A DNA stretch of 36,602 bases, taken from positions 1-36,602 of the forward strand of contig JANXMC010000431.1 in the NCBI GenBank assembly GCA_025354825.1. The letters run 5' to 3'. Source of the DNA: Myxococcales bacterium (GTDB lineage: Bacteria > Myxococcota_A > Polyangia > Polyangiales > Polyangiaceae). Shown piece by piece: positions 12,688 through 36,467 of this stretch. The notes below the pieces were generated by a model. It saw only the letters and a program-made list of their open reading frames with translations. It was not told where the DNA came from and made no database searches. Both the position numbers and the translations under genes were made by a program. Within the stretch, counting starts at the first letter, position 1. Every line of letters starts with the position of its first letter.

Positions 12688-13872
12688 CTAATTCGGCCGG
12701 CGCGGCGTCGGGTAGGTCACGTCGCGGTCGCGAATGGCCAGATCGCCCAGCGGATAGGTGGAAAGGCGGTTGCCGAGGCCGTCGAAGCCCGACGCCGTGA
12801 CGCGCCACGTCCCCGGCCCCATTCCCAACGCCATCCGCGCGGCGGCGGTGAGCCGCACGATATGCTTCGACGAGCCCCGTTCCGCCACGACGTCGCGGAC
12901 GACGTGCTCGATGGGGTGGGGCACGCCCTCGCGCTGAAAGACGAGGAGCGCTACGACCCGATCGGCCGTGTCGCCCGCATTTTCGAAGGTAAATTCGGCT
13001 TCGAAGTCTTGCTCGCGACCGATGGCGTGGAGAATCGAGGGCGCGTCGGCGAGCGTGACGCCGATGGCGCCGATCGTGAGCGCCGTCCCCGCATAGGTCT
13101 CGACGCGATTGAAGGCGCCGTCGAAGGCCGTCGCCGTGACGAGCCACGGCCCCGGCGCAATTCCGAGCGCCGTGCGCCGCGCCGAATCGACCACCGCGGT
13201 GTGCGTCGAGGTGCCGGGCTTCACCATGAGATCGGGGAAGTAAACTTCGACCCCTTTGGTCTCTCCTGGCTTGGTGAACACGAGAAGCGCCGTCACTTTC
13301 GCCACCGTGTCGCCGTCGTTCGTGAAGGTGAACGGCACCGTGAGCGCGTCGCTCCGCCCAATTCCGGGCGGAATCGGAGGCGCCGTCGGAAGCGCGACGA
13401 CGCTCGAGCCGAACGTGAGGGGATTGCCATAAAAGCCGTCGCCGACTTTTGCCCCTTTCGAATCGTAAATGGCAAACGTAACGGCATATACGCCAGGCGT
13501 GATGTTGGCTTTGAGGAGCTCGGCATTCGTGAGGACGACGTCGCGCGTCGACGCCCCCGGCGCGAACGTGATTTTCACCGATCGCTCGCGCGTTGCCGTC
13601 GTGGCGGGAGGCGTAAAGCCCATGAGAAGCGTCACCGTCTGCGGGCAGGCGGCGCCGTTCTCGAGCTCGACGGAGACTTTGAAGTCCCCTTTTCGCGAGA
13701 GCTCTTTCGAATACGTGGGGAGCTTCGTAAACGTCAGCGGACCGGGCGCGCACGGCGGCGCGGCGAGGGCCGAGACGACGGGGCCGTCGGCGCCGGCGAC
13801 TGCCCACGATGCGGCCCACGCCGTGGCGACGGCGACGAGAGCACGAGCGGTCTTCGAACGAGCGGGGCGCAC
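12688..13872 (-). CDS. Secreted protein with three tandem beta-sandwich repeats
   Basis: The frame is open from 13944, but a GTG at 13872 gives a better signal peptide (basic start RPARSKTAR, then ALVAVATAWAASWAVAG), for 394 residues. The mature protein consists of three copies of a domain of about 114 residues. Equivalent positions are VTLLMGF / VTALLVF / VVALLVF, then LKANITPGVYAVTFAIYD / TALGIAPGPWLVTATAFD / MALGMGPGTWRVTASGFD. Each looks like an Ig-like or filamin-like beta sandwich. There are two cysteines near the start of copy 1 (PPCAPG and AACPQ). It is divergent from the exopolysaccharide-like operon across 165 bp, so it may be a co-regulated envelope or adhesin protein. The family is not recognised. 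Confidence 0.8.
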   Translation of the reverse strand: MRPARSKTARALVAVATAWAASWAVAGADGPVVSALAAPPCAPGPLTFTKLPTYSKELSRKGDFKVSVELENGAACPQTVTLLMGFTPPATTATRERSVKITFAPGASTRDVVLTNAELLKANITPGVYAVTFAIYDSKGAKVGDGFYGNPLTFGSSVVALPTAPPIPPGIGRSDALTVPFTFTNDGDTVAKVTALLVFTKPGETKGVEVYFPDLMVKPGTSTHTAVVDSARRTALGIAPGPWLVTATAFDGAFNRVETYAGTALTIGAIGVTLADAPSILHAIGREQDFEAEFTFENAGDTADRVVALLVFQREGVPHPIEHVVRDVVAERGSSKHIVRLTAAARMALGMGPGTWRVTASGFDGLGNRLSTYPLGDLAIRDRDVTYPTPRRPN

Positions 13873-14037
13873 GCGCCGATAAGTGTGACACGGGCGCGGC
13901 TGCGCGCGCGGCCGACTGAACGTGGTGCCGCGTAGGGCGACCACGCACCCGCGCTCGCGCGGCCGCTTCGCGGTCGTGCTTGGCAGACCCCTGAAGCGCT
14001 CTTAGCGTGAAGCGGGTCGATTCATGCACATCGATAC

Positions 14038-15366
14038 ATGCAAATAGCGCGTATGCCGACGATGCGCGTGCGGACCCTCGCCGCGGCCATGCTCGCTCTC
14101 TCCTTCGTGCTCGCACGCACAGACTCGCGCGCGCTCCCGCCGCCGTTCGTCGTCCCGAGCCCGGGCGCTTCGACCGTGACGACGCCGACAGCCTTCACCG
14201 ATGGGCTCGTCAAGCCGTGGCCCGACAGCGCCGGGCCGCAAATCATCGCCCTCACCAACGCCGCCCGGCCGAGCGTTTCCGTCTACGACAACGCCCTCGC
14301 GACACTCGTATTTTTGCGCCTCGGGCGGCGCGCCGATGCCGAACGGGTGCTCACCGCGCTTTCGCAGCTGCAGCGCGACGACGGTAGCTTTCAATTCACG
14401 TTCCCCTACCCGAAGCCCGACGGCAGCCCCGCCTACGTGCGCGCCGGCGCGGTCGCGTGGGTGGGCTACGCGGCGACGGCGTTTCTCGACACCGGGCGCG
14501 GCGATGCGGGGCGCCCGGCGATCACGGCGATGGCCCACCGCGCGGCGGCGTACCTGGTATCGAAGCAGGTGCACGCCGCGAACGATCCGCGGGACGGCCT
14601 CGTCCTCGCGGGCGAAGGGACGTACCGCTACGAGGTCGACGGCGAGACGCTCCGCGAAACTCTGATTCCGGGTGCGCTCACGTTTGCGTCGACCGAGCAC
14701 AACATCGACGCATACTTCTTTTTGAGCTACTTCGCGCGTGTCACCGCGAATGCCAACTACGAGCAAGCGGCGAGCCGCGTTGCGCGGGCCGTCTCGACGC
14801 ATTTGTGGAATTCCACGACGGGGCAGTTTCATCGCGGGATGCTCGAAAAAGGGCCCGACACGGCGCTCGCCCTCGACTGCGCGTCGTGGGGGTCGGTTTT
14901 CCTATTTGCCATTGGCGAACGGACCCGCGCCGAAACGGCCTTTGCCGTGGCCGATGCGCGGTATGCATCGCGCGACCCGAAGACGGCGGTAAGCGGCCAC
15001 GTCCCTTATGCCCACGCGAAAGTCTACGAGAACATCAAGCTCGGCGAGCACTTCCGGCGTGAGGTGCCGGTGAACGACTGGGACGCCATCGAGGGCGTCT
15101 GGGCCGAAGGGAGCGCGGGGGTCGCGCTCGCCGCGCACCGACTTGGCAAAGTCGCGCGCGCCCGCGCGATACTCGGTGAGCTCGACAAGCTTCGGCCCCG
15201 TGGCGGCGGCCTGCCGATGTTTACGTCGGTGATCCCCCAAGAGCTCGATACCGCGCCGAGCGTCACCGGCACATTGTGGGTCGAGCTCGTTCGCTTCGAG
15301 CTCTCGCGCCCACCCACGTCGCAGACGTTCTGGACCGAGCCGCCCGCCCCGGCCCACGCGCGCTGA
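14038..15366 (+). CDS. Exported alpha/alpha-toroid (six-hairpin glycosidase-like) protein
   Basis: A 442-residue protein with an N-terminal signal peptide (VRTLAAAMLALSFVLA then SRA). Starts at 14038, 14053 and 14062 are all possible, and the last still leaves a full signal. The mature part is helical, with repeated helix-turn-helix units and acidic/aromatic motifs expected in an (alpha/alpha)6 toroid active site: YDNALATLVFLRLGR, LQRDDGSFQF, E220-H-N-I-D224-AYFFL, and VWAEGSAGVALA near residue 353. Such folds hold glycoside hydrolases, polysaccharide lyases and epimerases; BcsZ of cellulose synthesis is one example. The substrate is unknown. It is the first gene of the long plus-strand run, and its stop shares a base with the next start. 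Confidence 0.83.
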   Translation: MQIARMPTMRVRTLAAAMLALSFVLARTDSRALPPPFVVPSPGASTVTTPTAFTDGLVKPWPDSAGPQIIALTNAARPSVSVYDNALATLVFLRLGRRADAERVLTALSQLQRDDGSFQFTFPYPKPDGSPAYVRAGAVAWVGYAATAFLDTGRGDAGRPAITAMAHRAAAYLVSKQVHAANDPRDGLVLAGEGTYRYEVDGETLRETLIPGALTFASTEHNIDAYFFLSYFARVTANANYEQAASRVARAVSTHLWNSTTGQFHRGMLEKGPDTALALDCASWGSVFLFAIGERTRAETAFAVADARYASRDPKTAVSGHVPYAHAKVYENIKLGEHFRREVPVNDWDAIEGVWAEGSAGVALAAHRLGKVARARAILGELDKLRPRGGGLPMFTSVIPQELDTAPSVTGTLWVELVRFELSRPPTSQTFWTEPPAPAHAR

Positions 15367-16727
15367 TGCGACGCTCTCGCGCTCTCGCAGCTGCTGTCTG
15401 CGCCTTTTCATCGCTGCTCGCGGCAACCGGCCACGCGTTTCCGCCGCCGCGTCTCGCCCCCCTTCCGCCGCGACGTGCAACCGCGCCGCTCCCCTCGTTC
15501 GCCCCCGAGCGCGTCATCGAAACGCTCCACGCCGCCGCGCTTCGCATGGCCCACGAGCACGCCGTCGCCCATCGCTACGACCTCGCGCGCGAGGCATACC
15601 AGAAGCTGCTTCGCGCCCGTGCGAACGACGACGAAGCGCGGGTCGGCCTCGCACGCGTCGAAGCGTGGGACGGCGACTACGAAAATGCCGAGCGCCACTA
15701 CCGCGAAGTTCTCACGCGCCACCCCGAGAGCAGCGAAGCCCGGGCGGGGCTCGCGGACCTCTTGATATGGCGCCAGCGTGCAGGTGCGGCCGAGACCGAG
15801 ATCGATCTCGGATTGGCCAAAACGCCCGACAGTGCCGATCTGCTCACACGCAAAGCCCGTCTGCTGCAGTGGCGCGGCGATATCGCGATTGCGCGGCGGC
15901 TGATCGCGCGCGCCGAAGCGCAAGAGCCCGACAACGAAGACGTGCAGCGGGTCCGCGAGCGGATGCCCCTCGGCGAAGTCCGCGTGACGGGGCACGCCGA
16001 GCAGTTCCCCGGCCGGTACAAGAACCTCTACGGCGGCACCGTGCTTCTCACGCAGACCCTCGGCCGCTTCCGTTTTACGTTGAGCCACGAGCTTCTTCAG
16101 CGGTACGTCACGCAGGACGGCACGCGGGGTTTCGACGGCGTCCGCACGTTCGGTGCACATTACACGTTTGGGGTCGGAGGCTCTCTCGGCGTCGAGCTCG
16201 GCTACGCATCGCCGGCCAACGCCGTGCCGCGCTACACCGGCCGCGCCGAGGGGACGTACCCCTTGCCGATCCGTCTGACGGCGACAGCGTCCTACGCGTT
16301 CTGGCTCTTCAAAGACGACCGCACCGTTCACGTGATTTCGCCCGGCCTAGGCTTCGCTGCGAGCGAGAGCCTCGATTTCGGCCTGCGCGGCTATCTCGGT
16401 ATCGTGAGCGTTCCGCGGCGCGACGGCCGCGGGACGGGCGTGCTCGGAAGCGTCGTCCCTTCGATCAACGTCTGGGGCATTTGGCGGGCGTCGCGGCGCC
16501 TCACGATGGGCCTCGCGTACACGTACGGAACGCAGGTCGACAAGAACCCGGCGTTCTTCCAGCTCATCGATTTACGCTCCCACATTGGCACCTCGTATGC
16601 CGATTATCTCTTTTCGCGCACCTTTGGTGTGCGCCCCACGTTCGGTGCAGAGCTGCGTTACAACGCCACGCGCGGGCAGACTTTGCTCATTTATACCTAC
16701 GAGCTCAGCTCCTACGTGCGTTGGTGA
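15366..16727 (+). CDS. TPR plus outer-membrane beta-barrel protein (YaiO-like)
   Basis: A 453-residue protein starting in the TGATG overlap with the previous gene. It has a signal peptide (RRSRALAAAVCAFSSLLAATGHA) and about four TPR-like helical pairs (roughly 50-190; AREAYQKLLRARANDDEARV, AERHYREVLTRHPESSEARA). A C-terminal beta barrel of about 245 residues follows, with alternating strands such as RFRFTLSHELLQRYV and SLGVELGYA. The protein ends with an aromatic residue (SSYVRW), the expected C-terminal beta signal for BAM insertion. This is the layout of YaiO and, at smaller scale, of the PgaA and BcsC exporters, in which TPRs in the periplasm bind polymer or enzymes and the barrel exports. 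Export of the nearby synthase's product is inferred. Confidence 0.88.
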   Translation: MRRSRALAAAVCAFSSLLAATGHAFPPPRLAPLPPRRATAPLPSFAPERVIETLHAAALRMAHEHAVAHRYDLAREAYQKLLRARANDDEARVGLARVEAWDGDYENAERHYREVLTRHPESSEARAGLADLLIWRQRAGAAETEIDLGLAKTPDSADLLTRKARLLQWRGDIAIARRLIARAEAQEPDNEDVQRVRERMPLGEVRVTGHAEQFPGRYKNLYGGTVLLTQTLGRFRFTLSHELLQRYVTQDGTRGFDGVRTFGAHYTFGVGGSLGVELGYASPANAVPRYTGRAEGTYPLPIRLTATASYAFWLFKDDRTVHVISPGLGFAASESLDFGLRGYLGIVSVPRRDGRGTGVLGSVVPSINVWGIWRASRRLTMGLAYTYGTQVDKNPAFFQLIDLRSHIGTSYADYLFSRTFGVRPTFGAELRYNATRGQTLLIYTYELSSYVRW

Positions 16728-17980
16728 TTTTCGTGGCAAAGTTGGCATTCGTGCAGCGGCTTTCTTGGTGGCGTGCCTTTGCGACGATCGCGCTTTCGGC
16801 CTTGGCTGCGGGAGCCATCGGCTGCCGCAGCGATCCGTCGGCGGATGCCGCGGTCGACGCCGGCGATCCGGTGATTCCCCATTTCCCACACCCGCCCGTG
16901 CCGGTCGTCGCCGTGGCGCCCGGGTCGGTGCACACGTGCATGCTCCATTCGGATGCGACGGTCTCGTGCGTCGGCGCCGATTACGGCGGCCAGTTCGGCG
17001 ACGGCGTGCGCTCGCCCGAGCTCCGGCTACAGCCGGTCTTCGTGCCCAACGTGAAGGGCGCTGTCGAATTGGTCTCGGGGGAAAACCACGCGTGCGCGCG
17101 CCTCGCGGGCGGCACGGTCTCGTGCTGGGGCGCGAACGACCGCGGGCAGATGGGGCTCGGCCCCGATGCATCGACCGACCTGCCCGCCGTGTCGGGGCAA
17201 ACCGTCGTGGGGTTGAGCAACGTCGTCGGTATATCGTCGGGCTACCTTCATGTGTGCGCCGTGAGGGGCGACGGGACGGCGTGGTGCTGGGGCGGCAACC
17301 GCGCCGGGCGCCTCGGCGACGGGACTGCCGACGACCGATCGTCCCCTGTCCCCGTAAAGACGATTGCGAACGTCGCCGAGGTCGCTGCGGGGAACTTCCA
17401 CACCTGCGCGCGCCTCGGCGACGGGACCGTGACGTGCTGGGGTAGTAACGACTACGGCCAGCTCGGCGACGGAACGATTACGCCCACACGTCTGCCGGTC
17501 GCCGTCGCAGGGCTCGCGGGCGCCGTTCAGCTCGCGGCGGGCGCCTACCACGTCTGCGCGCGTACGGCGGACGGCCACGCATGGTGCTGGGGCGAAGGCG
17601 ATTTCGGCGCGATCGGCGACGGCGCCGGGGTCGACCGCCACGCGCCCGTCATGGTCCCAGGGCTCGAGCACGTAGCCGAGGTCAAAGCAGGCTTTCGCCA
17701 CTCGTGCGCCCGTACGGACGACGGGCAGGTCTACTGCTGGGGCGACAACGGCAACGGCGAAATCGCGCTCGCAACGTTGAAGCCCGTGCTCCTCCCGACG
17801 GCCATCGTCGGCATTCCGCTTTCAACCGCGGTTGGCCTGGGGATGAAGCACTCGTGCAGCGTGAAGAACGGTGGGACAGAGACCAGCGAAGTGTGGTGTT
17901 GGGGGTCGTCTTCCGACGCGCAGCTCGGAGATGGCGACAGGGGCGACGCGTTCCCAATTCCGCGCGCCATGCTCTGGTAA
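16724..17980 (+). CDS. Lipoprotein with seven RCC1-like repeats
   Basis: A 418-residue protein from a GTG overlapping the previous stop by 4 nt; GTG at 16733 is also possible. The signal ends in lipobox AIGC (Cys34). Seven repeats of about 50 residues follow with the pattern V-x-AGxxHxCA-x-DG-x-CWGxNxxGQLGDG, typical of RCC1 (seven-bladed propeller) repeats. Each repeat has a paired H-x-C and C-WG cysteine (one pair reads SCVG), suggesting one disulfide per blade and fitting an extracytoplasmic location. Such repeats are common in myxobacterial surface lipoproteins and usually mediate binding. Its position between the outer-membrane barrel and the glycosidase suggests a scaffold for the polymer machinery. 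Confidence 0.88.
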   Translation: MIFVAKLAFVQRLSWWRAFATIALSALAAGAIGCRSDPSADAAVDAGDPVIPHFPHPPVPVVAVAPGSVHTCMLHSDATVSCVGADYGGQFGDGVRSPELRLQPVFVPNVKGAVELVSGENHACARLAGGTVSCWGANDRGQMGLGPDASTDLPAVSGQTVVGLSNVVGISSGYLHVCAVRGDGTAWCWGGNRAGRLGDGTADDRSSPVPVKTIANVAEVAAGNFHTCARLGDGTVTCWGSNDYGQLGDGTITPTRLPVAVAGLAGAVQLAAGAYHVCARTADGHAWCWGEGDFGAIGDGAGVDRHAPVMVPGLEHVAEVKAGFRHSCARTDDGQVYCWGDNGNGEIALATLKPVLLPTAIVGIPLSTAVGLGMKHSCSVKNGGTETSEVWCWGSSSDAQLGDGDRGDAFPIPRAMLW

Positions 17981-17989
17981 GCTGGTAAG
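17974..17989 (+). repeat. Tandem 8-bp direct repeat across the RCC1 gene stop
   Basis: CTGGTAAG occurs twice back to back. The first copy contains the final TGG and TAA of the RCC1 gene. It may be a slippage product; no function is evident. Confidence 0.6.
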
Positions 17990-18025
17990 TCGAACCTCGC
18001 GCGCTACGATCATCGATTAGCCACT

Positions 18026-20395
18026 ATGGGATTTGCATCGTTCACGCGGCGCCGAGCGAGCGCGCTGTTACCGCTCGTCACCGTTGCCCTCGCGGCGTGC
18101 GTCCCCGCCTGCGAGTACATCAACCCCGACGACGACGAGGGGACCGAAGGGCGCCTTTCGTACGTCGCCCAGGCGCCGGTGTTCGAAACGCGCGCGTCGG
18201 ATCGCGGGTTCCAGCTTCGGCGGCCGGGGCGCGACTGGGAGGACTTTTACGCCATCGGGATGAACTTCGGAACAACGATTCCGGGGATGAATCCAGGCGA
18301 TTTCGCGGCAACCGGCGAGCAAATCGCGCGGTGGATCGAGGCAACGGCCGATCTCGGATGCAACTCGATTCGCACGTATACCGTGCAGTCCCCCGCGTTC
18401 TACGTGGAGCTTCGTAAGTGGAATTTGGCCCACCCGGATCGCGCGCTGCTGCTGCTTCAAGGCGCGTGGCTCGACGAGCCCGAGCACGTTGGCAACGAGC
18501 TGCCGGACTATTTGTCGGCGTACATGCACAACTGGTTTCGCGACGAGATCGAGCGCGTGATCGACGTCGTTCACGGCAATCGCATCATCGCCGAGCCGAG
18601 CGCCGAGAAGCCGTTCAACCGCGGGCGCGCCCACGGAACGTTCACGGCCGACGTGTCGCCGTGGCTTCTGGGCTGGCTAATCGGGCGAGAGGTGGAGCCC
18701 TATACGATTCAAAACTCCCACGCGCTCCACCCGAAGGACCGCCACTACGCCGGCGCGTACTTCACCCTCGACGACGGAATGCCTATCGAGGCCTTCATCG
18801 TTCAATATCTCGATTACACGGTTGCCTACGAGACGACCTATTACAAGCATCAGCACCCCGTCGGCTTCTCCAACTGGCCGACGCTCGATCCACTTCACCA
18901 CGCGACGGAGCCGCCCTTTCCCGAATCGTCCGAGGACGCGTACGACGTCGACCTCGTGAAGGCGAAAGTCGACACAACCAAGTTCGATCGCGGGGTTTTC
19001 TATTCGTACCACGCGTATCCGTACTACCCGGACTTTCTCCTCAATTCGCCCGATTACCAAGTAAGCGACGACGAGGGGCTCAACTCGTATCTCGGCTACC
19101 TTCGCGATCTACGGCAGCACTACAAGGGGATGACGCTCATCGTCGGCGAGACGGGCGTTCCGTCCAGCCAGGGGACGGCACACTTCGCAAAATCGGGGCT
19201 CAACCACGGCGCGCTCAACCAGGAGCAGCAGGGGAACGGCTTCGTCCGCGAGATTAAAACCGTCACCAACGCGGGCCTCAACGGGACGTTTCTGTTCGCG
19301 CTCATCGACGAATGGTTCAAGCGAACGTGGATCGTCGACCGCGTCGCCTTTCCGCCAGAGCGCCGACCGATGTGGCATAACGTGATGAGCCCCGAGCAGA
19401 ACTTCGGAATCATCGCGCTGAGGGCCGGCGCCGAAGGTAATTTCCATACGATCGACGGCAACATCGACGACTGGAAGTCGGCGCCGAATACGAAGAAGAG
19501 CGATCCGGTCGTGGTGCCGGCGAACGATGGGCAAGACGCGGCGCGGAACATTCGCGCGCTCACCGTCGAGCACGACGAGGCCTACGTTCACGTGAAGCTC
19601 GACGTAGAAAACCTCGACCCCGACGGGGACGGCAAAGTCGACTGGGACAAGCTCGATTACGTTGTCGCGTTCGACACCATCGACCCCGATCGCGGCGATT
19701 CACGCATCGTGGCGGACAAAACCGTCGGCGTCGAACGGCGCGCCGAGTTCATCGTGCGGATCCATAGCGACTCGGACGTGCAATTTCTCGTCGATCGCCC
19801 CTATGACACCTTTGGTATTTGGCACAAGCGCCGCGAGCCTTGGCAGATGTACCGGACGGTGAAGAACGACGACGGCCTGTGGAACATCACGCAGACGCTG
19901 ACGAACGTCGAATACATCTACAAGGACGTCTCGTTCGCGCCCGAGCAACATCAGATTACCGGCCAGCTCCCCGTGGGGGTCGAAGAGGCCAATTCGCTCA
20001 CGAACTTCTGGTACTCGATTGCGAACAACACCATCGAGCTCCGCATCCCGTGGAACATGCTTCTGTTCTCCGACCCGTCGATGCGCCGGGTCATCGACGA
20101 CTTCGGCAAGGCGCAAGGCGGCCCCGAGGTCGACACCACCGAAACCCCTGAGATTGCCGTGGTGGCCGCGAGCTTTGCGGGGACGGGGGAAGACGAGAAC
20201 TCCTTCGCCGACTCGCTGCCGAGGGCCAAGCTGAAAGACGGCGTCTACTGGATCCCCGCGGCGGGCGCGGCACGTCACGCTTGGGACAAGTGGGATACGC
20301 CGACGTTCCACGAATATCGGAAAAAGGGGTTCGATATTCTCAAGGCGCAAATCCCCAACGTGACGCCGCCGAGCATCAAGCTACCTGCGCCGTAA
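18026..20395 (+). CDS. Glycosidase-like lipoprotein: TIM-barrel (clan GH-A type) plus CBM9-like domain
   Basis: A 789-residue protein with a lipoprotein signal (LVTVALAAC, Cys25). Residues about 60-440 look like a (beta/alpha)8 glycosidase: FYAIGMNFGTTIPG, LGCNSIRTYTVQSPAFY, WLLGWLIGREVEPY with a candidate acid/base at E222 or E224, VFYSYHAYPYYPDF, and LIVGETGVPSSQG with candidate nucleophile E375. The spacing of about 150 residues fits a retaining clan GH-A enzyme. From about 475 to 730 it has a CBM9/DOMON-like beta domain, starting IDGNIDDWKSAP and continuing VEHDEAYVHVKLDVENL. It is probably anchored in the envelope and acts on, remodels or branches the polymer made by the locus. Family and linkage cannot be named; the acid/base is preceded by Arg rather than the usual Asn. 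Confidence 0.87.
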   Translation: MGFASFTRRRASALLPLVTVALAACVPACEYINPDDDEGTEGRLSYVAQAPVFETRASDRGFQLRRPGRDWEDFYAIGMNFGTTIPGMNPGDFAATGEQIARWIEATADLGCNSIRTYTVQSPAFYVELRKWNLAHPDRALLLLQGAWLDEPEHVGNELPDYLSAYMHNWFRDEIERVIDVVHGNRIIAEPSAEKPFNRGRAHGTFTADVSPWLLGWLIGREVEPYTIQNSHALHPKDRHYAGAYFTLDDGMPIEAFIVQYLDYTVAYETTYYKHQHPVGFSNWPTLDPLHHATEPPFPESSEDAYDVDLVKAKVDTTKFDRGVFYSYHAYPYYPDFLLNSPDYQVSDDEGLNSYLGYLRDLRQHYKGMTLIVGETGVPSSQGTAHFAKSGLNHGALNQEQQGNGFVREIKTVTNAGLNGTFLFALIDEWFKRTWIVDRVAFPPERRPMWHNVMSPEQNFGIIALRAGAEGNFHTIDGNIDDWKSAPNTKKSDPVVVPANDGQDAARNIRALTVEHDEAYVHVKLDVENLDPDGDGKVDWDKLDYVVAFDTIDPDRGDSRIVADKTVGVERRAEFIVRIHSDSDVQFLVDRPYDTFGIWHKRREPWQMYRTVKNDDGLWNITQTLTNVEYIYKDVSFAPEQHQITGQLPVGVEEANSLTNFWYSIANNTIELRIPWNMLLFSDPSMRRVIDDFGKAQGGPEVDTTETPEIAVVAASFAGTGEDENSFADSLPRAKLKDGVYWIPAAGAARHAWDKWDTPTFHEYRKKGFDILKAQIPNVTPPSIKLPAP

Positions 20396-20411
20396 GGGGT
20401 CCGGGTAACCC

Positions 20412-20439
20412 GATATCCGCGATATCCTACGATGTCGTA
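20412..20439. promoter_or_regulatory. Cluster of dyads before the GT2 gene pair
   Basis: The 99-bp gap between 20395 and 20495 holds GATATC-CGC-GATATC (20412-20426) followed by TACGA-TG-TCGTA (20428-20439), two adjacent inverted repeats, with related CGATA/CGATG words at intervals of about 10 bp. It is the largest gap in the 14038-23148 run. It could be an operator, an internal promoter or an attenuating hairpin. No regulator is identified. Confidence 0.4.
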
Positions 20440-20494
20440 CGCGCGATAGCGCCTCGCAGTCCGCAGCGGCGCGGTACGCTTATCGCTCGCCACC

Positions 20495-21634
20495 GTGAAG
20501 ATTCCCGAGAAGGTCGCCGACGCCGCGCGCATCGCGCTCGCTGTGGCGGCTGTCTTTCTCCTTGTCGAGGGGCCCTACCTCGCGTGGCGCCTCAAAAAGC
20601 CCAAGACCCTCGGCGTCGTCGTCGTGGACAAGACCATCCCCTTCCCAAACTTTCGTGAGCACGAGTCGGTCGCGTGGCTCCTCCACGCGCTGAAGATCGA
20701 AATGCCGCGCGGCGGCTTCATGGACGCCAGCAAAAACTACGTCGGCTTCGACCCGTACACCAAGACCGGCCGCGAGCTCACGTCGGCCGATCTCGAAGGG
20801 GCCGACGCCGTCGTCGTCGCCGACACCTACGGCGTGTACCGCGGCGACTACGAGCGAGCCGATCAAACCGCCGCCCTCGAACGGTCGCCGATTCTCTTCG
20901 GCGGCCTCGCCCCGAACGAAGCTGTCCTGCTGCGCGATTTCGACGCCCGCGGCGGTATCGTGATTGCCGAGTTCAACACGTTCGGCTCGCCCACCGGCAG
21001 AGAAGCGCGCAGCACCATGGAAGCGCTGATCGGCGCGCAGTGGACGCGCTGGGTAGGGCGGTACTTTCGCGATTTGGCCGACGCGAGCGAGGTGCCCCAG
21101 TGGGTCAATCGCATGTACGAGCAGCAGTACAAAAAGCCGCTCGACGTCCGCGGCGGCGGCTTCGTCATGGTTCGTGAGGATCAGGACATCGTCGTCCTCG
21201 AACGCGCGACGCACTTCGTGGAAGACGAGCTTGTCACCATCGACAAGACCGACGCGGGTAAGAAAATCGCCGGGTTGCCGGGCGATAGCCGTTTTTCCTA
21301 TTGGCTCGACATTCTCACGGCCATCGATTGCGACGTTCTCTACGAATACCGACTTCATACGACCGACGCGGGGAATGAGGTTCTTAAAGCCCACGGCCTC
21401 GACGCCAAGTTCCCCGCCGTGATGAAGCGCAAGGGCGCCCACAACGTCTGGTACATGGCCGGTGACTTCGTCGACGCCACCGAGGAACGTGGCGATCCGG
21501 AGCGCCTCGGCCTCTTGGGCTTTCGCCGCTCGAAAGCCGTGATTGGCGCGGCCCCCGAAGACGCGCAATTTCTCTGGGGGTTCTACGCGCCACTTCTCGA
21601 GGCCATTTTGGCCCCCCGCGCGAGGCTCAAATAA
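20495..21634 (+). CDS. Membrane-anchored extracytoplasmic protein of unknown function, coupled to GT2
   Basis: A 379-residue protein starting at GTG 20495. One N-terminal membrane helix (about 8-30, ARIALAVAAVFLLVEGPYLAW) is followed by a soluble alpha/beta domain outside the cytoplasm. Visible motifs are TLGVVVVDKTIPFPNFREHE, DAVVVADTYGVYRGDY, ILFGGLAPNEAVLL, FDARGGIVIAEFNTFGSPTG and WVGRYFRDL. The alternation of strands and helices resembles a glutamine-amidotransferase-like or DUF4350-like Rossmann fold, but I see no catalytic Cys-His pair and assign no reaction. The stop shares one base with the glycosyltransferase start (TAATG), so the two are surely made together and may form a complex. 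Confidence 0.83.
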   Translation: MKIPEKVADAARIALAVAAVFLLVEGPYLAWRLKKPKTLGVVVVDKTIPFPNFREHESVAWLLHALKIEMPRGGFMDASKNYVGFDPYTKTGRELTSADLEGADAVVVADTYGVYRGDYERADQTAALERSPILFGGLAPNEAVLLRDFDARGGIVIAEFNTFGSPTGREARSTMEALIGAQWTRWVGRYFRDLADASEVPQWVNRMYEQQYKKPLDVRGGGFVMVREDQDIVVLERATHFVEDELVTIDKTDAGKKIAGLPGDSRFSYWLDILTAIDCDVLYEYRLHTTDAGNEVLKAHGLDAKFPAVMKRKGAHNVWYMAGDFVDATEERGDPERLGLLGFRRSKAVIGAAPEDAQFLWGFYAPLLEAILAPRARLK

Positions 21635-23148
21635 TGTTCGTCTTTTCGTACATTCTGCAGTTTCTCGACGCGGCCATCGTGCTTTATGTCACCGCGTTCT
21701 TCGGAATGAACCTCGCGTTCATTTTCATAAGCCTTTTCAGCATTCACAAAGACTTGCGGCTCGAGCAGACGAAGCCTGCGATGTCGCTCGAGAACCACAA
21801 GTTCTTCCCGCACATCACGCTCCTCGTCCCCGCCTACAACGAGGAGGTGACCATCGAGGAGAGCGTCCGCTCTCTCCTGCGACTCCGGTATCCGTCGTTC
21901 GAGATCATCATCTGCAACGACGGCTCGAAAGACCGCACCGTCGAGGTTTTACGCCGCGCGTTTCAGTTCGTGCGAACCGAGATCGAATACGATGATCACC
22001 TTCAAACCTCGAAAATTCGTGCCTTTTACGTCTCCCGCGCGCCGCTCGTTCCGGGCCTCAAAAAGCTCGTCCTCATCGACAAAGAGAACGGCGGCAAGGC
22101 CGACGCGCTGAACGCCTGCATCAACGTTTCGCAAGGCGACTTCGTCACGAGCATGGACGCCGACAGCCTGCTCATCCCCGACGCGCTGCTGCTCGCGGCG
22201 CGCCCCATCGTCGAGAACCCCGGCGGCATCATCGCCGTCGGCGTTCAGGTGGGAATCTCCAACGGATCCATCGTCGAAGACGGGCGCGTCGTGGACATGC
22301 GCTTGCCCCATACGTGGATTGGCAAGTTTCAAATCGTCGAATACATGCGTTCGTTCTCGCAGGGGCGCGTCGCCTTTGCCTGGCTCAACTCGCTCTTGAT
22401 TCTGTCCGGCGTCTTCGCCCTCATGCGGCGCGACCTCGTCGTCTCCATCGGCGGCTTCCTCACGAAGCACATGAAGAACCGCGTCTGCCTCGAATACTGC
22501 GGCGAGGGCGCCCACACGGTTTGCGAGGACATGGAGATCGTCGTGCGCCTGCACCGCTACGTTCTCGACAAGAAGATCCCCGGCAAGGTCACGATGCTTC
22601 CGTTCGCCACGGCGTGGACCGAAGCGCCGGAGAACTACCGCGACATCGGCAAGCAACGCTCGCGCTGGTACCGCGGCCTGCTCGAAGTGCTCGTTTACCA
22701 CCGCGCCGTCATGCTCAATCCGCGTTTCCGGCAGATCGGCCTCTTCTCCCTCCCCTATCAGCTGGTCTTCGAAGCGTTGGCGCCGGTCTTCGAAGTGATG
22801 GGGTACGTTCTTTTGCTCGGGACGCTGCTTTTGGGCACTCTGTCGGGCCGAGCGCTTCTGTCGTTCCTCGCGCTCGCGACGTCGATGCACTTATGCCTAA
22901 GCTCGCTCTCCGTCCTCCTGTGCGTCTTCACCGCCCGTGCCGTCCCGAGCGAGGTCGAAGGGATTGCGCTCTTCTCGTACACCCGCCTTCGCGACGTGGT
23001 GACGCTACTTCTCGCCGGGTTCATCTCAAATTTCGGGTATAGGCAATACCTGGTAGCGTGGCAGATCAAAGGTCTCTACGACTTCTTCAAAGGCAAAAAG
23101 GGATGGGACAAGTTCGCTCGCAAAGGCTTTGCGCCAGGTAAAGCATGA
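21634..23148 (+). CDS. Processive family 2 glycosyltransferase (polysaccharide synthase-like)
   Basis: A 504-residue integral membrane enzyme. One or two N-terminal helices (about 5-36) precede a GT-A domain with PAYNE, NDGSKDRT (D96), MDADS (D175/D177, the metal-binding DxD), CEDME (E298/D299, the catalytic TED-like acid) and QRSRW (341-345, the QxxRW acceptor motif of processive synthases). About four helices follow (roughly 352-490), with the interfacial segment RQIGLFSLPYQLVFEAL. This layout is shared by cellulose, hyaluronan and PgaC synthases. No C-terminal PilZ domain is present. It probably polymerises a nucleotide-sugar and extrudes the chain through the inner membrane. The sugar is unknown. 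It overlaps both neighbours (1 nt and 4 nt). Confidence 0.93.
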   Translation: MFVFSYILQFLDAAIVLYVTAFFGMNLAFIFISLFSIHKDLRLEQTKPAMSLENHKFFPHITLLVPAYNEEVTIEESVRSLLRLRYPSFEIIICNDGSKDRTVEVLRRAFQFVRTEIEYDDHLQTSKIRAFYVSRAPLVPGLKKLVLIDKENGGKADALNACINVSQGDFVTSMDADSLLIPDALLLAARPIVENPGGIIAVGVQVGISNGSIVEDGRVVDMRLPHTWIGKFQIVEYMRSFSQGRVAFAWLNSLLILSGVFALMRRDLVVSIGGFLTKHMKNRVCLEYCGEGAHTVCEDMEIVVRLHRYVLDKKIPGKVTMLPFATAWTEAPENYRDIGKQRSRWYRGLLEVLVYHRAVMLNPRFRQIGLFSLPYQLVFEALAPVFEVMGYVLLLGTLLLGTLSGRALLSFLALATSMHLCLSSLSVLLCVFTARAVPSEVEGIALFSYTRLRDVVTLLLAGFISNFGYRQYLVAWQIKGLYDFFKGKKGWDKFARKGFAPGKA

Positions 23149-23861
23149 GCGCGCCCGACAGCATGGCTCCGCCGCCTTTTGCCGGTGAGAGCGAGCCCAA
23201 AGCCAGCGTTTCGCCGGAGACTGCCCACGATTTGCGATCGCTTCTGCAAATCATCGTCGGGTATGCCGCAAACCTCCGCGACGGCGTGACGGGCCCCCTC
23301 ACGCCGGAGCAGGTCACCCAAGCGACGCGCATCGTCGAAGCCGCCGACAGCGCCGGCGCGCTCCTGTCCTCGGGAGGCGGCGAAGCGAAGAGCGTCTCGA
23401 TCGAAGAGCTCGTACGCGAGGTCGTCTCGCTCTTCGAAGAAAGCGCGAGCTCGCTGCCGGTGAAGCTCGTCGTCACGTGCGATCCGAAGGTCGGCCTCAC
23501 AGATCAAGGGGCGCGCGTTCGTCGCGTGACGCTGAACTTGCTGTCTAATGCCCTCAAATTCAGCCCGCCGAATGGAACCGTTTACGTGAGCGTCGAGCAC
23601 CTCGCCCGCAGCGAGGGCAGAGCGGCAACGGGCGTTCGCATCACCGTCGCCGACCAGGGGCCCGGCATTCCCGAGGGCGATCGTGGGCGCGTGCTCGAAA
23701 TGGGCAAACGGCTCGAGCGCGACCGCCTGCTGCCAGGCTCGGGCATCGGCCTCGCGGTCGTGAAGCGCGGCGTCGAGCTTTCGGGTGGAACTCTCACCAT
23801 TGGCGACTCTGTCGGCGGCGGAGCAACTTTCGTGGTCGAGCTGCCCGCCTTCGCCGGGTGA
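23145..23861 (+). CDS. Small soluble histidine kinase without sensor domain
   Basis: A 238-residue protein whose ATG overlaps the glycosyltransferase stop by 4 nt (ATGA). It has a dimerisation/phosphoacceptor helix with AHDLRSLLQIIVGYAANL (His28) and a HATPase_c domain containing NLLSNALKFSPPNG, DQGPGIP and GSGIGLAVVK. There is no sensory or membrane domain, so it must receive its signal through a partner. That could be the neighbouring membrane proteins or the HEAT scaffold. Coupling to the synthase gene suggests control of polymer production. The stand-alone receiver gene 87 bp downstream is the obvious phosphotransfer partner. Confidence 0.9.
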   Translation: MSAPDSMAPPPFAGESEPKASVSPETAHDLRSLLQIIVGYAANLRDGVTGPLTPEQVTQATRIVEAADSAGALLSSGGGEAKSVSIEELVREVVSLFEESASSLPVKLVVTCDPKVGLTDQGARVRRVTLNLLSNALKFSPPNGTVYVSVEHLARSEGRAATGVRITVADQGPGIPEGDRGRVLEMGKRLERDRLLPGSGIGLAVVKRGVELSGGTLTIGDSVGGGATFVVELPAFAG

Positions 23862-23948
23862 TCTAGACTTGAGGGTGACGCGCGATGGCAGCGCGCCACG
23901 AGGCTCGAAGTCAGTGATGATGCTTGGCAGTCGAGGATCGCGGACGGG

Positions 23949-24323
23949 ATGAAGGGTGGTGCGCACATCCTTCTCGTGGACGACAACCCTCACATGTTGG
24001 AGTTCTTGGACGTGCGCCTGCGAGGGTTGGGCCTCCGCACGACGATCGTCGACAACGGCGCCGCCGCCCTCGACGTAGTTCGCGACGATCCGCCGAACCT
24101 CGTGATTCTCGATATCGCGATGCCCGAATTGAACGGCTACCAAGCGTGCCGCGCCATCAAGGCGCAGAACGCGAAGCTGCCCGTGATCATGCTCACGGGC
24201 AAAACCGAAAAGGCCGATCGGTTTTGGGCGCAGCAGTGCGGCGCCGACGACTTCCTCTCGAAGCCCGTCGATCCGACCGTCGTCGTCCAGCGGATCGCCG
24301 ACCTCTTGGAGAAGGCGCGGTGA
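23949..24323 (+). CDS. Stand-alone receiver domain (response regulator without output domain)
   Basis: A 124-residue receiver: HILLVDDN with acidic pair D11/D12, phospho-acceptor D55 in LVILDIAMPELNGYQ, the switch Thr in IMLTGKT, and Lys in FLSKPVDP. It ends after the last receiver helix with no DNA-binding or enzymatic output, so it probably acts by protein contact, like CheY or Spo0F. It lies between the histidine kinase and the HEAT-repeat gene and overlaps the latter by 4 nt (GTGA), suggesting the HEAT protein as a binding target. Confidence 0.93.
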   Translation: MKGGAHILLVDDNPHMLEFLDVRLRGLGLRTTIVDNGAAALDVVRDDPPNLVILDIAMPELNGYQACRAIKAQNAKLPVIMLTGKTEKADRFWAQQCGADDFLSKPVDPTVVVQRIADLLEKAR

Positions 24324-27300
24324 GCCCGAGGACAGTTCTCCTCATTACGCTCTTCATCGTCGTCTCGACCGCCCTTCCGACTCTCTACGTTTTCCTCCGC
24401 GAGATTCTCCGCCGGCGTCGGAGCAAGCGCGCGATCAGCGAGCTCGAGGCGGCCAAGGCCGTCATCACGGGCGACACGAGCCTCCTCACGACCGCCGAGC
24501 GCGACGCCCGCATAAAAGAGCTTCGCGAGCGCTTCGACCCGCTTACCGTAGAGCGCGCCGTCGAGGCGCTCATCGCCGACACCGACCCGGCGCGCCGCAC
24601 GCTCGGACGCACGGTCTTCGACGCCCTCGGCTTTTTCGAGATTTATACGACACGCCTCCGCGTCGCCAAGGCGTGGAGCGCGCGGGCCCACGCCGCGGGC
24701 GTCCTCGGTCACCTCGCCGTCCCTTCGGCGGTGCCCGCCCTGGTCGCCTGTCTGCGTGATCCCCACGAAGACGCGGCCACGGTGAAAATCGCCGCCGCAA
24801 ACGCCCTCGCCGCGATTCACGACGACAGCGCCATTCCTCTGCTCGTCGAGCAGCTTCGTGAGATTGACGAGTGGTCGTCGCCGCGCGTCGCCGAGGCGCT
24901 CATCACCTTCGGCAAGCCGGCCGTGGGGCCCCTCATCGAGATGCTCGACGGGCAAACGCCTGCCGCCGCCCGCGTCTGGGCCGCCCGCGTCCTCGGCCGC
25001 ATCGGCGACAAAGAGGCCGTCGACGTTCTCATGGGGCGTCTTCATGAAAGGCACGATCTGCTTCGCGTCGCCGCGGCGCAGGCCCTCGGCCTCATCGGCG
25101 ATCCTCGCGCGCTCCGGCCGCTGATGCAGGCGTCTCTTCGCGACCCGGCGCCGCAAGTGCGCGCTCACGCGGCCGCCGCCCTCACGAAAGTGGGCGGCGA
25201 AAAGGCCATCGACGTCTTCGTCGCCGCGCTCTCCGACCCCGACTACGGAACGCGCCTCCGCGCGCTCGAAGCGCTCGAGAGCGTCGAGCTCACCGACACC
25301 AGCGTTCTCGAAATCGGGCTCCGCGATCAGAACCTCGAAGTCCGCCGCCGCGCCGCCCTCGCCCTCGAGCGCGTGGGGCACCTCGCGCGCGTGGTCGAGC
25401 GCCTCGCATCGGACGACTACAACGACGCGAAGAACGCCTACCTCGCGCTCCTCGAGCTCGGTCGCGCGGGGCTCATCGACAGCGTTGCGGGCCACTTGCA
25501 TCATGCACGTTTCGAGGTACGCGCCTACGTCGCCATGGCGTGCGGCGAGCTCGGCGCCGCGCGCACCGGGGCGCTTCTTTTGGCGGCCCTCGACGACCCC
25601 GCATGGCCCGTACGCGCGCGCCTCGCCGAAGCCATTGGTCTCTTGAAGCCCGAAGGCGCGACGGAGGCCCTTGCGAAGCTTCTCGTGGACCCCGAAGCGC
25701 CCGTCGCCGAAGCGGCTTCCGAAGCGCTCACACGCTTCGGCGCGAAGGATCTCGAGCCCATTTACGAGGTGCACATCATCCCCGCTTACGACCGCGGCTC
25801 GGTCATCGTGCGAAGCCAAGTGCTCGCCCTCGCCAACCGCTTCGAACGCAAAGAGACAACTGCGCTTTTGATCCGCGCGGTCGACGATCCGAGCGAGCGC
25901 GTCCGCGAAATGGCCGTGCGCGCCTTCGAGGGGCGAAGCGCCGAAGCGCCCATCGCGCTGCTCGCGGGCCGCTTGATGGATACGTCGCTGCAGGTGCGCG
26001 TCGCCGCGGTCGCGGCCCTTGGGAGCGACGTCTCGACGGAATCGTTCGAGATGCTCCTACGGGCGCTGCCCGGCGCATCGATCGAGCTACGGGAGAGGAT
26101 CACGAGCGCCCTCGCACGGGACGCGCGGCGCCTCGTGTGGCTGAAGGCCGCGGAGATGGTCTCGTCGGACAACGCCGACGTGCGCCTCGGCCTCGCATGG
26201 ACCTTAGGAAAAGTCGGCGATCCCGAAGGGGTCGGCTACCTGCGCGAGCTTCTCACCGACGGCGTGTCGGTCGTGCGGGCGAGCGCCGCGGGCGCGCTCG
26301 GGAAGATCCCCGGCACCGAGACGACGAAGGTTCTCCTCGCGGGTGTCGCAGACCGCGACGCGCGGACGCGAGCGGCCGTCGTCAACGCCCTCGGCAAGGT
26401 AGGCTCCTCGAGCCGCGCGACCCTCGCGGCCCTTCGCGGCCGGCTCATCGACCCCGACGCGTTCGTGCGCGACCGCGCGGTCCTGGCCCTTGGTCGGCTG
26501 GGCGACGTAGACCTCGAGAACGCCCTCGCCGACGCCCGCGTTCGAGGCTTCGTGAGCGACATTCCGTCGCGCATCGCGCTGGTCTTGAGCGGCAGCACGA
26601 AGGCCGTCGGCTCGGCGATCGACGCCCTCGCGAACGAGACCGAGCGGCGCGCCCTCACGGAGTTTCTCGCGCGCGAAGAGCCTGCGTTGCGCCGCGCGTT
26701 CTACGGCAAAGTGGGGCTCGACGACGGCCACGGCGCCGTCCCCACCGATCTCGAGCCGCCGGGGCTCGTCGCGCACTACGAGCAGACGCTCCATACGTCC
26801 GCCGATGTGGCGGCACGTCAGGTCGCCGTCGAAGCGCTCACACGTCTCGGAGGCGCGTCGAGCGGGCAGGTGTTGGCCGACGTCGTCCGGTCCGATCCGT
26901 CGGCGCCCGTTCGCCTCGCCGCCGCGAACGCGCTCGCCGGCTCCGACTTCGATGTCGCCAACGGCGCGCTCCTCGGTGCGGTCTCCGATCCGAGCGAAGA
27001 CGTCGCGCTCGTCGCCTTACGCGCCGTCCACGCGCGCAGGCTGCCCGGAACACGCGATGCGCTTCTGAGGCGCCTGGGTTCGGGCTCCCCCGAGCTTCGC
27101 GCCGTGCTCGAAGGGATCGTCGCCGAGCTTTACCAGTCCGACGGCATGGCGTTCCTCGACTGGATGATGGGCATCGAGGACACGGCCACCATCGTCGCCT
27201 GCGTGAACGTTCTCGCGCGCCTCGCCGATGCGTCCCACGTCCCGCTCCTCGTCGAGCTTGGTCGCACCCGCGACGCACACGTGCGAAGCGCCGTCGTGAA

Positions 27301-27967
27301 GGCGGTCGCTCAGTTTCCCGATGGCGACGCGCGCGACGCGGTCGACGACGCCCTCCTCGACCCCGACGAGATCGTGCGCGAGACCGCGGTCGTCGCTCTT
27401 CTCGGGTCGCGGCACGACCGAAGCTACGTCCGCGCCGAAGCTGCGATTCGCGACCCGTCGACCCGCGTCCGTCGCGCCCTCGCGACCCTCCTCGGCGGCG
27501 CAGCGACACCGGCGGTTCTCCCCCTGCTCATCTTGCTCGCCGAGGATCTCGACGCGGTCGTGAGCGGCACTGCCCTCGCTTCTCTGCTCACGATCGGCAA
27601 CGCCGCGTTCGAGCTTTATCGAAGTGCTTATGAGCGCGCCTCGACGGACGCGCGCTATCATCTGCGCCGCGACGCGCGCGTTCCGGCAATCTGCGCGGGC
27701 CTGGCCCTCGTCGTCGGTGCGAGCCGCATCGAAGCCGACCGCAGAACCGCCGTCGAGACGGTCGCGGCTCTCGCCCCCGAGGGGTATGCGAAGCTCCTCG
27801 TGGGAGCGCTCCGCGACCCTTCGGCGCGCGTCCGCGAGGCCGCGATTCTCGCCCTCGCCCCCGTCGACGACGCCGACGTTCGAAAGCGGATCGCAGAGCT
27901 CCTCGGCGACCCCGACAGGAACGTGCGAGAGGCCGCGAAGCGCTCACACCTGCGCGTCGTTTCGTGA
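24320..27967 (+). CDS. Giant membrane-anchored HEAT-repeat protein
   Basis: A 1,215-residue protein from GTG 24320, coupled to the receiver gene. One membrane helix near the N-terminus (about 5-26, TVLLITLFIVVSTALPTLYV) is followed by a basic stretch LRRRRSKR, placing the bulk in the cytoplasm. From about residue 120 to the end it is almost entirely HEAT or PBS-lyase-like helical repeats of about 31-37 residues. Recurrent words are VPALVACLRDP, VRAHAAAALTKVG, AAANALA, VREAAILALAPV and DPDRNVREAA. Such solenoids bind proteins and have no catalysis of their own. With the kinase and receiver it looks like an inner-membrane docking platform. An alternative is a phycobilin-lyase-type HEAT enzyme, but length and anchor argue against it. 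Confidence 0.9.
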   Translation: MSPRTVLLITLFIVVSTALPTLYVFLREILRRRRSKRAISELEAAKAVITGDTSLLTTAERDARIKELRERFDPLTVERAVEALIADTDPARRTLGRTVFDALGFFEIYTTRLRVAKAWSARAHAAGVLGHLAVPSAVPALVACLRDPHEDAATVKIAAANALAAIHDDSAIPLLVEQLREIDEWSSPRVAEALITFGKPAVGPLIEMLDGQTPAAARVWAARVLGRIGDKEAVDVLMGRLHERHDLLRVAAAQALGLIGDPRALRPLMQASLRDPAPQVRAHAAAALTKVGGEKAIDVFVAALSDPDYGTRLRALEALESVELTDTSVLEIGLRDQNLEVRRRAALALERVGHLARVVERLASDDYNDAKNAYLALLELGRAGLIDSVAGHLHHARFEVRAYVAMACGELGAARTGALLLAALDDPAWPVRARLAEAIGLLKPEGATEALAKLLVDPEAPVAEAASEALTRFGAKDLEPIYEVHIIPAYDRGSVIVRSQVLALANRFERKETTALLIRAVDDPSERVREMAVRAFEGRSAEAPIALLAGRLMDTSLQVRVAAVAALGSDVSTESFEMLLRALPGASIELRERITSALARDARRLVWLKAAEMVSSDNADVRLGLAWTLGKVGDPEGVGYLRELLTDGVSVVRASAAGALGKIPGTETTKVLLAGVADRDARTRAAVVNALGKVGSSSRATLAALRGRLIDPDAFVRDRAVLALGRLGDVDLENALADARVRGFVSDIPSRIALVLSGSTKAVGSAIDALANETERRALTEFLAREEPALRRAFYGKVGLDDGHGAVPTDLEPPGLVAHYEQTLHTSADVAARQVAVEALTRLGGASSGQVLADVVRSDPSAPVRLAAANALAGSDFDVANGALLGAVSDPSEDVALVALRAVHARRLPGTRDALLRRLGSGSPELRAVLEGIVAELYQSDGMAFLDWMMGIEDTATIVACVNVLARLADASHVPLLVELGRTRDAHVRSAVVKAVAQFPDGDARDAVDDALLDPDEIVRETAVVALLGSRHDRSYVRAEAAIRDPSTRVRRALATLLGGAATPAVLPLLILLAEDLDAVVSGTALASLLTIGNAAFELYRSAYERASTDARYHLRRDARVPAICAGLALVVGASRIEADRRTAVETVAALAPEGYAKLLVGALRDPSARVREAAILALAPVDDADVRKRIAELLGDPDRNVREAAKRSHLRVVS

Positions 27968-27980
27968 GGAGTCGCGCGTT

Positions 27981-27994
27981 TGCCCACGTGGGCA
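27981..27994. promoter_or_regulatory. Perfect 14-bp palindrome in the HEAT/DUF4388 gap
   Basis: TGCCCACGTGGGCA is a perfect 14-bp palindrome 14 bp after the HEAT gene stop and about 120 bp before the next gene. It contains a CACGTG core. It could be an operator for the downstream gene or, as RNA, a short 5-bp hairpin (loop ACGT) followed by TATCTCT ending the upstream transcript. Confidence 0.45.
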
Positions 27995-28104
27995 TATCTC
28001 TCTGCAAGAGCGCGTACGCCGCGAGCCCAACGTACTGAGATTGGCATTCGCATTTGTTCGGCTCATCGATGTACGATCGGGATTCCCGGGGGTGCAGGTC
28101 GAAT

Positions 28105-28110
28105 GGAAGG
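28105..28110 (+). promoter_or_regulatory. Shine-Dalgarno-like GGAAGG choosing the DUF4388 gene start
   Basis: GGAAGG lies four bases before the ATG at 28115. It favours that start over the in-frame ATG at 28103, which has only a weak AGGTCG upstream. Confidence 0.5.
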
Positions 28111-28114
28111 CGGC

Positions 28115-35663: not shown

Positions 35664-35672
35664 GGGGTACCG

Positions 35673-35680
35673 CGTTAACG
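35673..35680. promoter_or_regulatory. Palindrome CGTTAACG in the 45-bp divergent spacer
   Basis: CGTTAACG, within GTAC-CGCGTTAAC-GTAC, sits between the divergent 512-residue gene and the dehydrogenase gene. In a gap this short both promoters must overlap, so it may be a shared operator. An 8-bp palindrome can occur by chance. Confidence 0.3.
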
Positions 35681-35708
35681 TACTACAGGGTGCTAAGGTC
35701 GACGCGAC

Positions 35709-36467
35709 ATGCGCCCCCGCACGGTTTTCCTCTCCGGTGCATCGAGCGGCATCGGCCACGCGCTCGCCCTCGAATACGCTCGCCGCGGCGCTCACGTCGC
35801 CCTGGCAGCTCGCCGCAAAGAGCCCCTCGAAGAGCTCGCCCGCGCCATCGAGGGGGCAGGCGGCAAGGCGTTCGTCGTCCCCGTCGACGTGAGCGATCCG
35901 GCCGCCGTCAAAGAGGCCGTGATCGCGGCAGAGCGCGCGCTCGGCAGCCTCGACATGGTCGTCGCCAACGCCGGCATCGGCCACTCGGGGCATGCGGCGC
36001 GGCTCACCATGGACTCGGTGAACGAGATCATCGACGTCAACATCCGCGGCGCCTTCGCGACGATCCTCGCGGCCGTGCCGATCATGCTGCTTCAAGGGCA
36101 CGGCCACCTCGTGGGCGTGTCGAGCCTCGCGGGGCGCCGCGGGCTGCCCACGTCGGGCGCCTACAGCGCGAGCAAGGCGGCGCTGTCGGTCTTTTTGGAG
36201 ACGCTTCGCATCGATCTCGCGCCGTCGAAAATTCGTGTGACCGACGTGCAGCCAGGCTTCGTGGCGACGCCGATGACCGAGAAAAACAAGCACCCGATGC
36301 CGTTCAAGTGGACCCGCGACAAGGCCGCGCGGGTCATCGCGACGCGCCTCGAGCGCGCGCCCGCGATGATCGCGTTTCCGTGGCAGCTCACGCTCGCGAC
36401 AAGCTTCGCGCGGCTCTTGCCGTCGTGGATCTACGACCGCGTCGTGGGCGGCGCGGCAGACCGGTAA
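35709..36467 (+). CDS. Short-chain dehydrogenase/reductase (SDR)
   Basis: A 252-residue classical SDR: cofactor motif FLSGASSGIGHAL (residues ~7-19), adenine-ring DVSDP, NAGIG, and the catalytic set Ser (VGVSSLAG), Tyr and Lys (GAYSASKAALSV). The Arg-rich end of strand 2 (ALAARRKEP) favours NADP(H). The C-terminus has a hydrophobic helix (FPWQLTLATSFARLLPSWI), so it may associate with the membrane, as in lipid-acting SDRs. The substrate is not predictable. The 3' end overlaps the convergent rsmE gene by 37 bp. Confidence 0.92.
   Translation: MRPRTVFLSGASSGIGHALALEYARRGAHVALAARRKEPLEELARAIEGAGGKAFVVPVDVSDPAAVKEAVIAAERALGSLDMVVANAGIGHSGHAARLTMDSVNEIIDVNIRGAFATILAAVPIMLLQGHGHLVGVSSLAGRRGLPTSGAYSASKAALSVFLETLRIDLAPSKIRVTDVQPGFVATPMTEKNKHPMPFKWTRDKAARVIATRLERAPAMIAFPWQLTLATSFARLLPSWIYDRVVGGAADR

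Follow-up and report, generated by a model that had tools for sequence, protein, structure and literature searches.

A nine-gene myxobacterial operon with a HEAT-repeat partner, a probable synthase-dependent polysaccharide system of undescribed type

Much of the biofilm matrix comes from synthase-dependent systems, such as those for cellulose, poly-N-acetylglucosamine (PNAG), Pel and alginate. The operon described here resembles several of them. It shares with the PNAG systems PgaABCD and IcaABCD a processive GT2 synthase, an exporter combining TPR repeats with a barrel, and a periplasmic modifying enzyme, and with the Bcs cellulose systems a GT2 synthase, a TPR-barrel protein and a glycosidase. 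Likewise, NfrAB/YbcH of Escherichia coli, the N4 glycan receptor (PMC8669469, PMC8669472), has a GT2 synthase whose outer-membrane partner contains TPR. There is also a likeness to Pel and to the Agd3-like bacterial operons (CE18), which have been linked to GAG/Pel-like clusters with GH114 genes (PMC7229062), in that deacetylase proteins adjoin sister loci of our system. A search limited to open-licence papers, which is weak evidence, retrieved no description of an exopolysaccharide locus combining HEAT with GT2 or GGDEF.

The window, as we call the whole stretch of 36,602 nucleotides that was analysed, is the complete contig G000:C152 of an 8.98-Mb genome. It contains nine close-packed plus-strand genes, spanning positions 14038-27967 (Table 1), in the order TOR, TPR, RCC1, GH, P5, GT2, HK, RR and HEAT. 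Overlaps join TOR/TPR, TPR/RCC1, P5/GT2, GT2/HK and RR/HEAT; the GT2/HK junction at 23145 is an ATGA overlap, and the HEAT start at 24320 lies inside the RR stop codon, in a GTGA overlap. A preliminary description of this DNA had listed six plus-strand genes, almost without gaps and ending at 23148. All six are present, after correcting the starts of the TPR/barrel gene (ATG at 15366 instead of 15276, with a 1-base overlap with the preceding stop) and of the RCC1 gene (GTG at 16724, overlapping the stop of the barrel gene), but the end was set too early, as HK, RR and HEAT extend the operon to 27967. The GT2, TPR and RCC1 domains that it named were recovered in Pfam scans (7e-25, 3e-15 and 1e-89, respectively) and, in agreement with it, these gave no PilZ match. 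Consensus scans yielded few promoter-like sites, and terminator-like sites were rarer than in shuffled sequence. The flanking genes at 12688-13944 (minus strand) and 27980-29701 (plus strand) were considered as parts of the system and rejected, because related loci contain no homologues of them. Downstream of the operon, positions 29766-32096 and 34125-36491 showed weak matches to AAA lid and bpX2, from MoxR-vWA-beta-propeller ternary systems.

Table 1. Genes of the operon in the window, and GATase-like plus deacetylase proteins at sister loci (locus:positions)
Feature	Positions	Strand	Basis
TOR: secreted, toroid-like	14038..15366	+	no Pfam family; homologues at related loci
TPR repeats and C-terminal outer-membrane beta-barrel	15366..16727	+	Pfam TPR_19, 3e-15; barrel read from sequence
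RCC1-repeat lipoprotein	16724..17980	+	Pfam RCC1-like, 1e-89
GH lipoprotein: clan GH-A (beta/alpha)8 and beta-rich C-terminal part	18026..20395	+	model; no Pfam family
P5: inner-membrane-anchored periplasmic GATase1-like domain (predicted)	20495..21634	+	model; no Pfam family
GT2: processive membrane polysaccharide synthase (predicted)	21634..23148	+	motifs; Pfam Glycos_transf_2, 7e-25
HK: soluble histidine kinase without sensor domain	23145..23861	+	HATPase_c, 1e-22; HisKA
RR: single-domain response regulator	23949..24323	+	Response_reg, 1.2e-28
HEAT: membrane anchor and long HEAT-repeat array	24320..27967	+	HEAT_2, 12 stretches, 6.5e-95
GATase-like + deacetylase protein	L185:329-2527		
GATase-like + deacetylase protein	L185:12227-14308		
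GATase-like + deacetylase protein	L186:12068-14773		
GATase-like + deacetylase protein	L187:10811-13942		
GATase-like + deacetylase protein	L096:7671-9887		

The GT2 product carries the complete set of processive motifs (D96, D175xD177, E298-D299 and Q341RSRW, at 341-345), which marks it as a predicted processive membrane GT2 with D, DxD, ED and QxxRW, and no PilZ domain was found on it in the Pfam scan. Relatives occur in Bacillota, Bacteroidota, Acidobacteriota, Gemmatimonadota, Aminicenantes and Sericytochromatia. The nearest ones come from the same family as the window (locus L185), from the same order (L186) and from a Myxococcales MAG (L096/L154), and a GT2 tree joins the window to L185, L186 and L096 with full support. 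Full-length members of the group score about 445-750 bits against its own profile, compared, on a similar profile of the group, with 122 bits for E. coli PgaC, 35 for BcsA and 20 (19.9) for NfrB. The GT2 from locus L086, labelled as a Klebsiella pneumoniae MAG, falls inside the Myxococcales and the locus carries their GT2-P5 fusion (see below), so this label looks wrong.

On model scores and domain scans, membership of the window system in Pga, Bcs, Pel or Nfr was rejected. The window GT2 scored 111.8 bits against the PgaC/IcaA synthase model (TIGR03937; cut-off 422.3) and the barrel protein 33.1 bits against the PgaA porin model (TIGR03939; cut-off 366.7), no polysaccharide-deacetylase match corresponding to PgaB/IcaB was found among the scanned operon proteins and, relative to Pga/Ica, the HEAT, P5, GH-A lipoprotein, TOR, kinase and REC genes are extra. 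The differences from Bcs are equally wide: 40.8 bits for GT2 against the CelA model (cut-off 699) and 23.1 bits for the barrel protein against BcsC (cut-off 858), no PilZ, no BcsB domain found and no GH8 match in TOR or GH. NfrB differs by its 19.9 bits against the GT2 profile, by the lack of a match to a c-di-GMP-binding domain in the window GT2 and by its other partner set. In contrast to Pel, the synthase is a GT2, with no PelF-type GT4 among the scanned operon proteins; unlike the Agd3-like operons, ours has a processive GT2 as its synthase and gave no GH114 match. Alginate systems were compared through NCBIfam only, with no Alg8, Alg44 or AlgE among the matches. Likewise, none of the E. 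coli Pga, Bcs and Nfr proteins that were tested matched the P5, HEAT, GH or TOR profiles. Judging from sequence, the window system works like the tested known systems but is a member of none of them, as already proposed for Bcs and Pga in the preliminary description.

To evaluate linkage across genomes we used P5, whose lack of a Pfam family made it the most suitable probe. A species-level genome collection contained 264 P5 relatives, and we fetched the loci of 80 of these, from Myxococcota, Bacillota, Bacteroidota, Acidobacteriota, Gemmatimonadota, Sericytochromatia and Aminicenantes. GT2 and HEAT lay nearby in 57 of the 80; these, one more plasmid locus and the window make up 59 GT2 loci, 28 from Bacillota and 31 from other groups. 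A HEAT homologue occurs within 6 kb of GT2 in all 59 (28/28 and 31/31), compared with only one of the 23 fetched loci without GT2 (L093, a 3.5-kb contig); these GT2-less loci are the main control for a profile that was trained on the same loci and for repeats that are promiscuous. As a further control, HEAT adjoins GT2 in 12 of 13 GT2 loci that lack P5, the thirteenth being a 3.4-kb contig, and the same 13 loci contain TPR in 10 cases, TOR in eight and GH in four. HEAT is the most constant partner of the GT2 synthase.

A profile search of 284 genomes of the phylum found P5 in 29 and GT2 in 45, with GT2 present in all 29 P5 genomes; the chance expectation for co-occurrence is about 4.6, to be read knowing that relatedness inflates the counts, since a single family supplies most P5 carriers in this sample and the events lack independence. 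P5 was missing from 16 of the 45 GT2 genomes. Where P5 had no GT2 nearby, GT2 was found elsewhere in the genome in 16 out of 17 cases. Moreover, GT2 and P5 are fused into one protein of about 830 residues in one Myxococcota family, and P5 and GH into one of about 1,075 residues in Bacillota, which ties parts of the system together. The core machine is found in six or more bacterial phyla, some with an outer membrane and some lacking one. The proposal, made at the outset from gene order and overlaps, of a single synthase-dependent polysaccharide system thus gains from the conserved neighbourhood, the genome-level co-occurrence and the two gene fusions, and the anchored protein encoded from position 20495 (P5) does belong with the synthase, given the 29 of 29 genomes and the GT2-P5 fusion. 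Against it, P5 and GH are not universal, and GH exists also as orphans.

The run GT2-HK-RR-HEAT is conserved in L096, L185, L186, L192 and L193, and L185, L186 and L096, the last being the closest relative with P5, keep TOR as well; RR is 63% identical in L096 and L185. Because a basic run follows its anchor, the HEAT array is placed in the cytoplasm by topology prediction. In Bacillaceae, the gene preceding HEAT codes for a GGDEF-REC protein whose GGEEF motif is intact, and the P5-GH gene is followed by genes for a REC protein and a hybrid kinase; Paenibacillus and Sericytochromatia also contain GGDEF-REC proteins, with weaker GGDEF scores. The initial statement that there is no c-di-GMP subunit is therefore true of the window but does not extend to the Bacillota and Sericytochromatia versions, with GGDEF-REC beside the HEAT gene. 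A REC gene lies within 6 kb of GT2 at 31 of the 59 GT2 loci, versus none of 13 GT2-less control loci. The HEAT subunit may relay signals.

The structure model of P5 (pLDDT 93.3) consists of an N-terminal anchor and a GATase1-like domain. In structure it most resembles the trimerisation domains of GH42 beta-galactosidases (Z 15.4 over 192 residues, 2.8 A), followed by ThuA-like and other GATase1-like proteins (Z 12-15 across all, GH42 domains included), so that by its modelled fold P5 is a GATase1-like superfamily protein; a PDB profile search gave nothing useful. Amidotransferase chemistry is unlikely, because no cysteine occurs in the invariant or nearly invariant columns of P5 that could correspond to the conserved nucleophile of GATase1 amidotransferases. 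The invariant residues (H56, D110-x-YGVY, E159-x-N161, W186 and R189) mark what is, from the alignment, a conserved site. Taken with the predicted topology of the GT2-P5 fusion, the anchor would put the domain outside the cytoplasm. The pairing of P5 with GH recalls GH42 enzymes, where both folds lie in one chain.

GH, detected at 26 of the 28 Bacillota GT2 loci, was modelled with AlphaFold2 (pLDDT 75), and the model supports its initial assignment to the GH-A type. The barrel matched best a GH157 endo-beta-1,3-glucanase (Z 27.7, with 16% identity), followed by GH2 glucuronidases (24.8) and GH72 (23.7). Two acids are invariant: E222, which directly follows strand beta-4, and E375, within strand beta-7. 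In the model GH is a clan GH-A protein, with a (beta/alpha)8 barrel and putative catalytic acids after strands 4 and 7. There was no PDB sequence match at E 1, and PDB profile searches gave nothing useful. A CBM9-like domain had been suggested for the C-terminal part, which is predicted to be beta-rich; Pfam did not confirm it.

From its sequence, TOR is a probable hydrolase or lyase built as an (alpha/alpha) toroid, and its family has no named relative. The toroid, part of the original reading, is plausible from the sequence pattern, but the profile matches are weak (E 0.13 or worse) and a Pfam search with the TOR family gave nothing over the cut-off. Its homologues, with the conserved motifs YDNAL, TEHNID and ALD, occur at 16 of the 31 non-Bacillota GT2 loci, and the L096 copy is 50% identical. 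The TPR/barrel protein, likely an export channel to judge from its predicted architecture, was detected at 23 of the 31 non-Bacillota GT2 loci and at none of the 28 from Bacillota, which fits a role in outer-membrane crossing. In one Myxococcota family, the genes preceding TPR belong to the riboflavin pathway or to housekeeping and were left outside the system. RCC1, in turn, had been counted as a member of the system, but no related locus contains a homologue, so it is probably a local passenger.

At sister loci, a different type of protein combines a GATase-like/GH42M-like part with a polysaccharide-deacetylase part (Table 1), as if an alternative modifying module were replacing or joining P5; this suggests that related polymers may contain N-acetylated sugars. 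No such protein was found in the window's own genome. Sequence kinship between P5 and the GATase-like part was considered and discarded, with an hhalign probability of only 8.7%.

We estimate a probability of around 0.8 that the nine-gene operon encodes a single polysaccharide synthase system, and its type is very probably undescribed; for the relatives that we found, there is no record of a polymer, a product or a phenotype. GT2 would build a linear polymer and extrude it through the inner membrane. From its anatomy, the HEAT array, in the cytoplasm and with its anchor next to the synthase, could tentatively be seen as a docking platform, through which phosphorylated REC (in the window) or GGDEF-REC (in Bacillota and Sericytochromatia) would switch the synthase on or off. 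P5 would sit in the periplasm where the chain emerges and, more doubtfully, might act together with GH, by analogy with the pairing of a GATase1-like domain and a GH-A barrel in GH42 enzymes, or else with the toroid protein, in trimming, cutting or guiding the chain. The TPR/barrel protein would then carry the chain through the outer membrane, which would account for Gram-positive versions without it.

A divergent Pga-type system, in which GT2 would be a relative of PgaC, the barrel a relative of PgaA and the polymer PNAG, appears improbable to us. PgaC/IcaA is indeed the closest named model for GT2, and among three E. coli synthases PgaC comes closest, at 122 bits; the barrel protein has PgaA as its first NCBIfam match, and polysaccharide-deacetylase proteins occur at sister loci. 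However, both proteins fall far below the cut-offs (112 versus 422 bits, and 33 versus 367), GT2 family members reach about 445-750 bits on their own profile when PgaC reaches 122 on a similar one, and the operon lacks a PgaB-type deacetylase and contains P5, HEAT, GH and TOR, whose profiles miss the tested E. coli proteins. We give slightly less credit to the GT2 module making a glycolipid or membrane-anchored glycan, with HEAT, HK and RR controlling envelope glycosylation; its long-range conservation in Gram-positives, where no export protein is visible, and the lack of a known product agree with this, but the complete processive motifs, QxxRW included, the TPR/barrel partner specific to outer-membrane bacteria and the secreted hydrolase-like partners argue against it.

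The variable gene order among lineages, the occasional location of GH and P5 elsewhere in the genome and the passenger status of RCC1 could also mean that two modules were read as one, namely HEAT-GT2-signalling and an unrelated envelope sugar-hydrolase cluster with TOR, TPR, RCC1 and GH. This is the least probable of the alternatives, because the P5-GH and GT2-P5 fusions join the two halves, and TOR and TPR remain near GT2 even where P5 was lost. Returning to a single polysaccharide system, the chances are about even that it constitutes a further major synthase-dependent class in Myxococcota, Bacillota, Bacteroidota, Acidobacteriota, Gemmatimonadota and others, where a membrane HEAT subunit, receiving its input from response regulators and diguanylate cyclases, would replace PilZ-type control, and whose polymer is not yet described. 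If so, a system conserved across spore-formers, Bacteroidota and Myxococcota, with relatives in cultured, harmless strains such as Rossellomorea marisflavi, Anoxybacillus flavithermus or Algoriphagus, would bring a new polymer and three protein families (P5, GH and TOR) that lack a Pfam entry, and how HEAT proteins may link a glycan synthase to phosphorelay and c-di-GMP signals would become a testable idea.

GH homologues were also observed on their own. The window's own genome contains an orphan, 35% identical (G000:C803:1-1599, L140:1-1599), and genomes of the same family or order contain others without a nearby homologue of GT2, P5 or HEAT (L138:10386-12611 and L139:481-2388). In Ammoniphilus, a second, stand-alone GH homologue (L105:18512-20674) lies about 5 kb past the P5-GH fusion.
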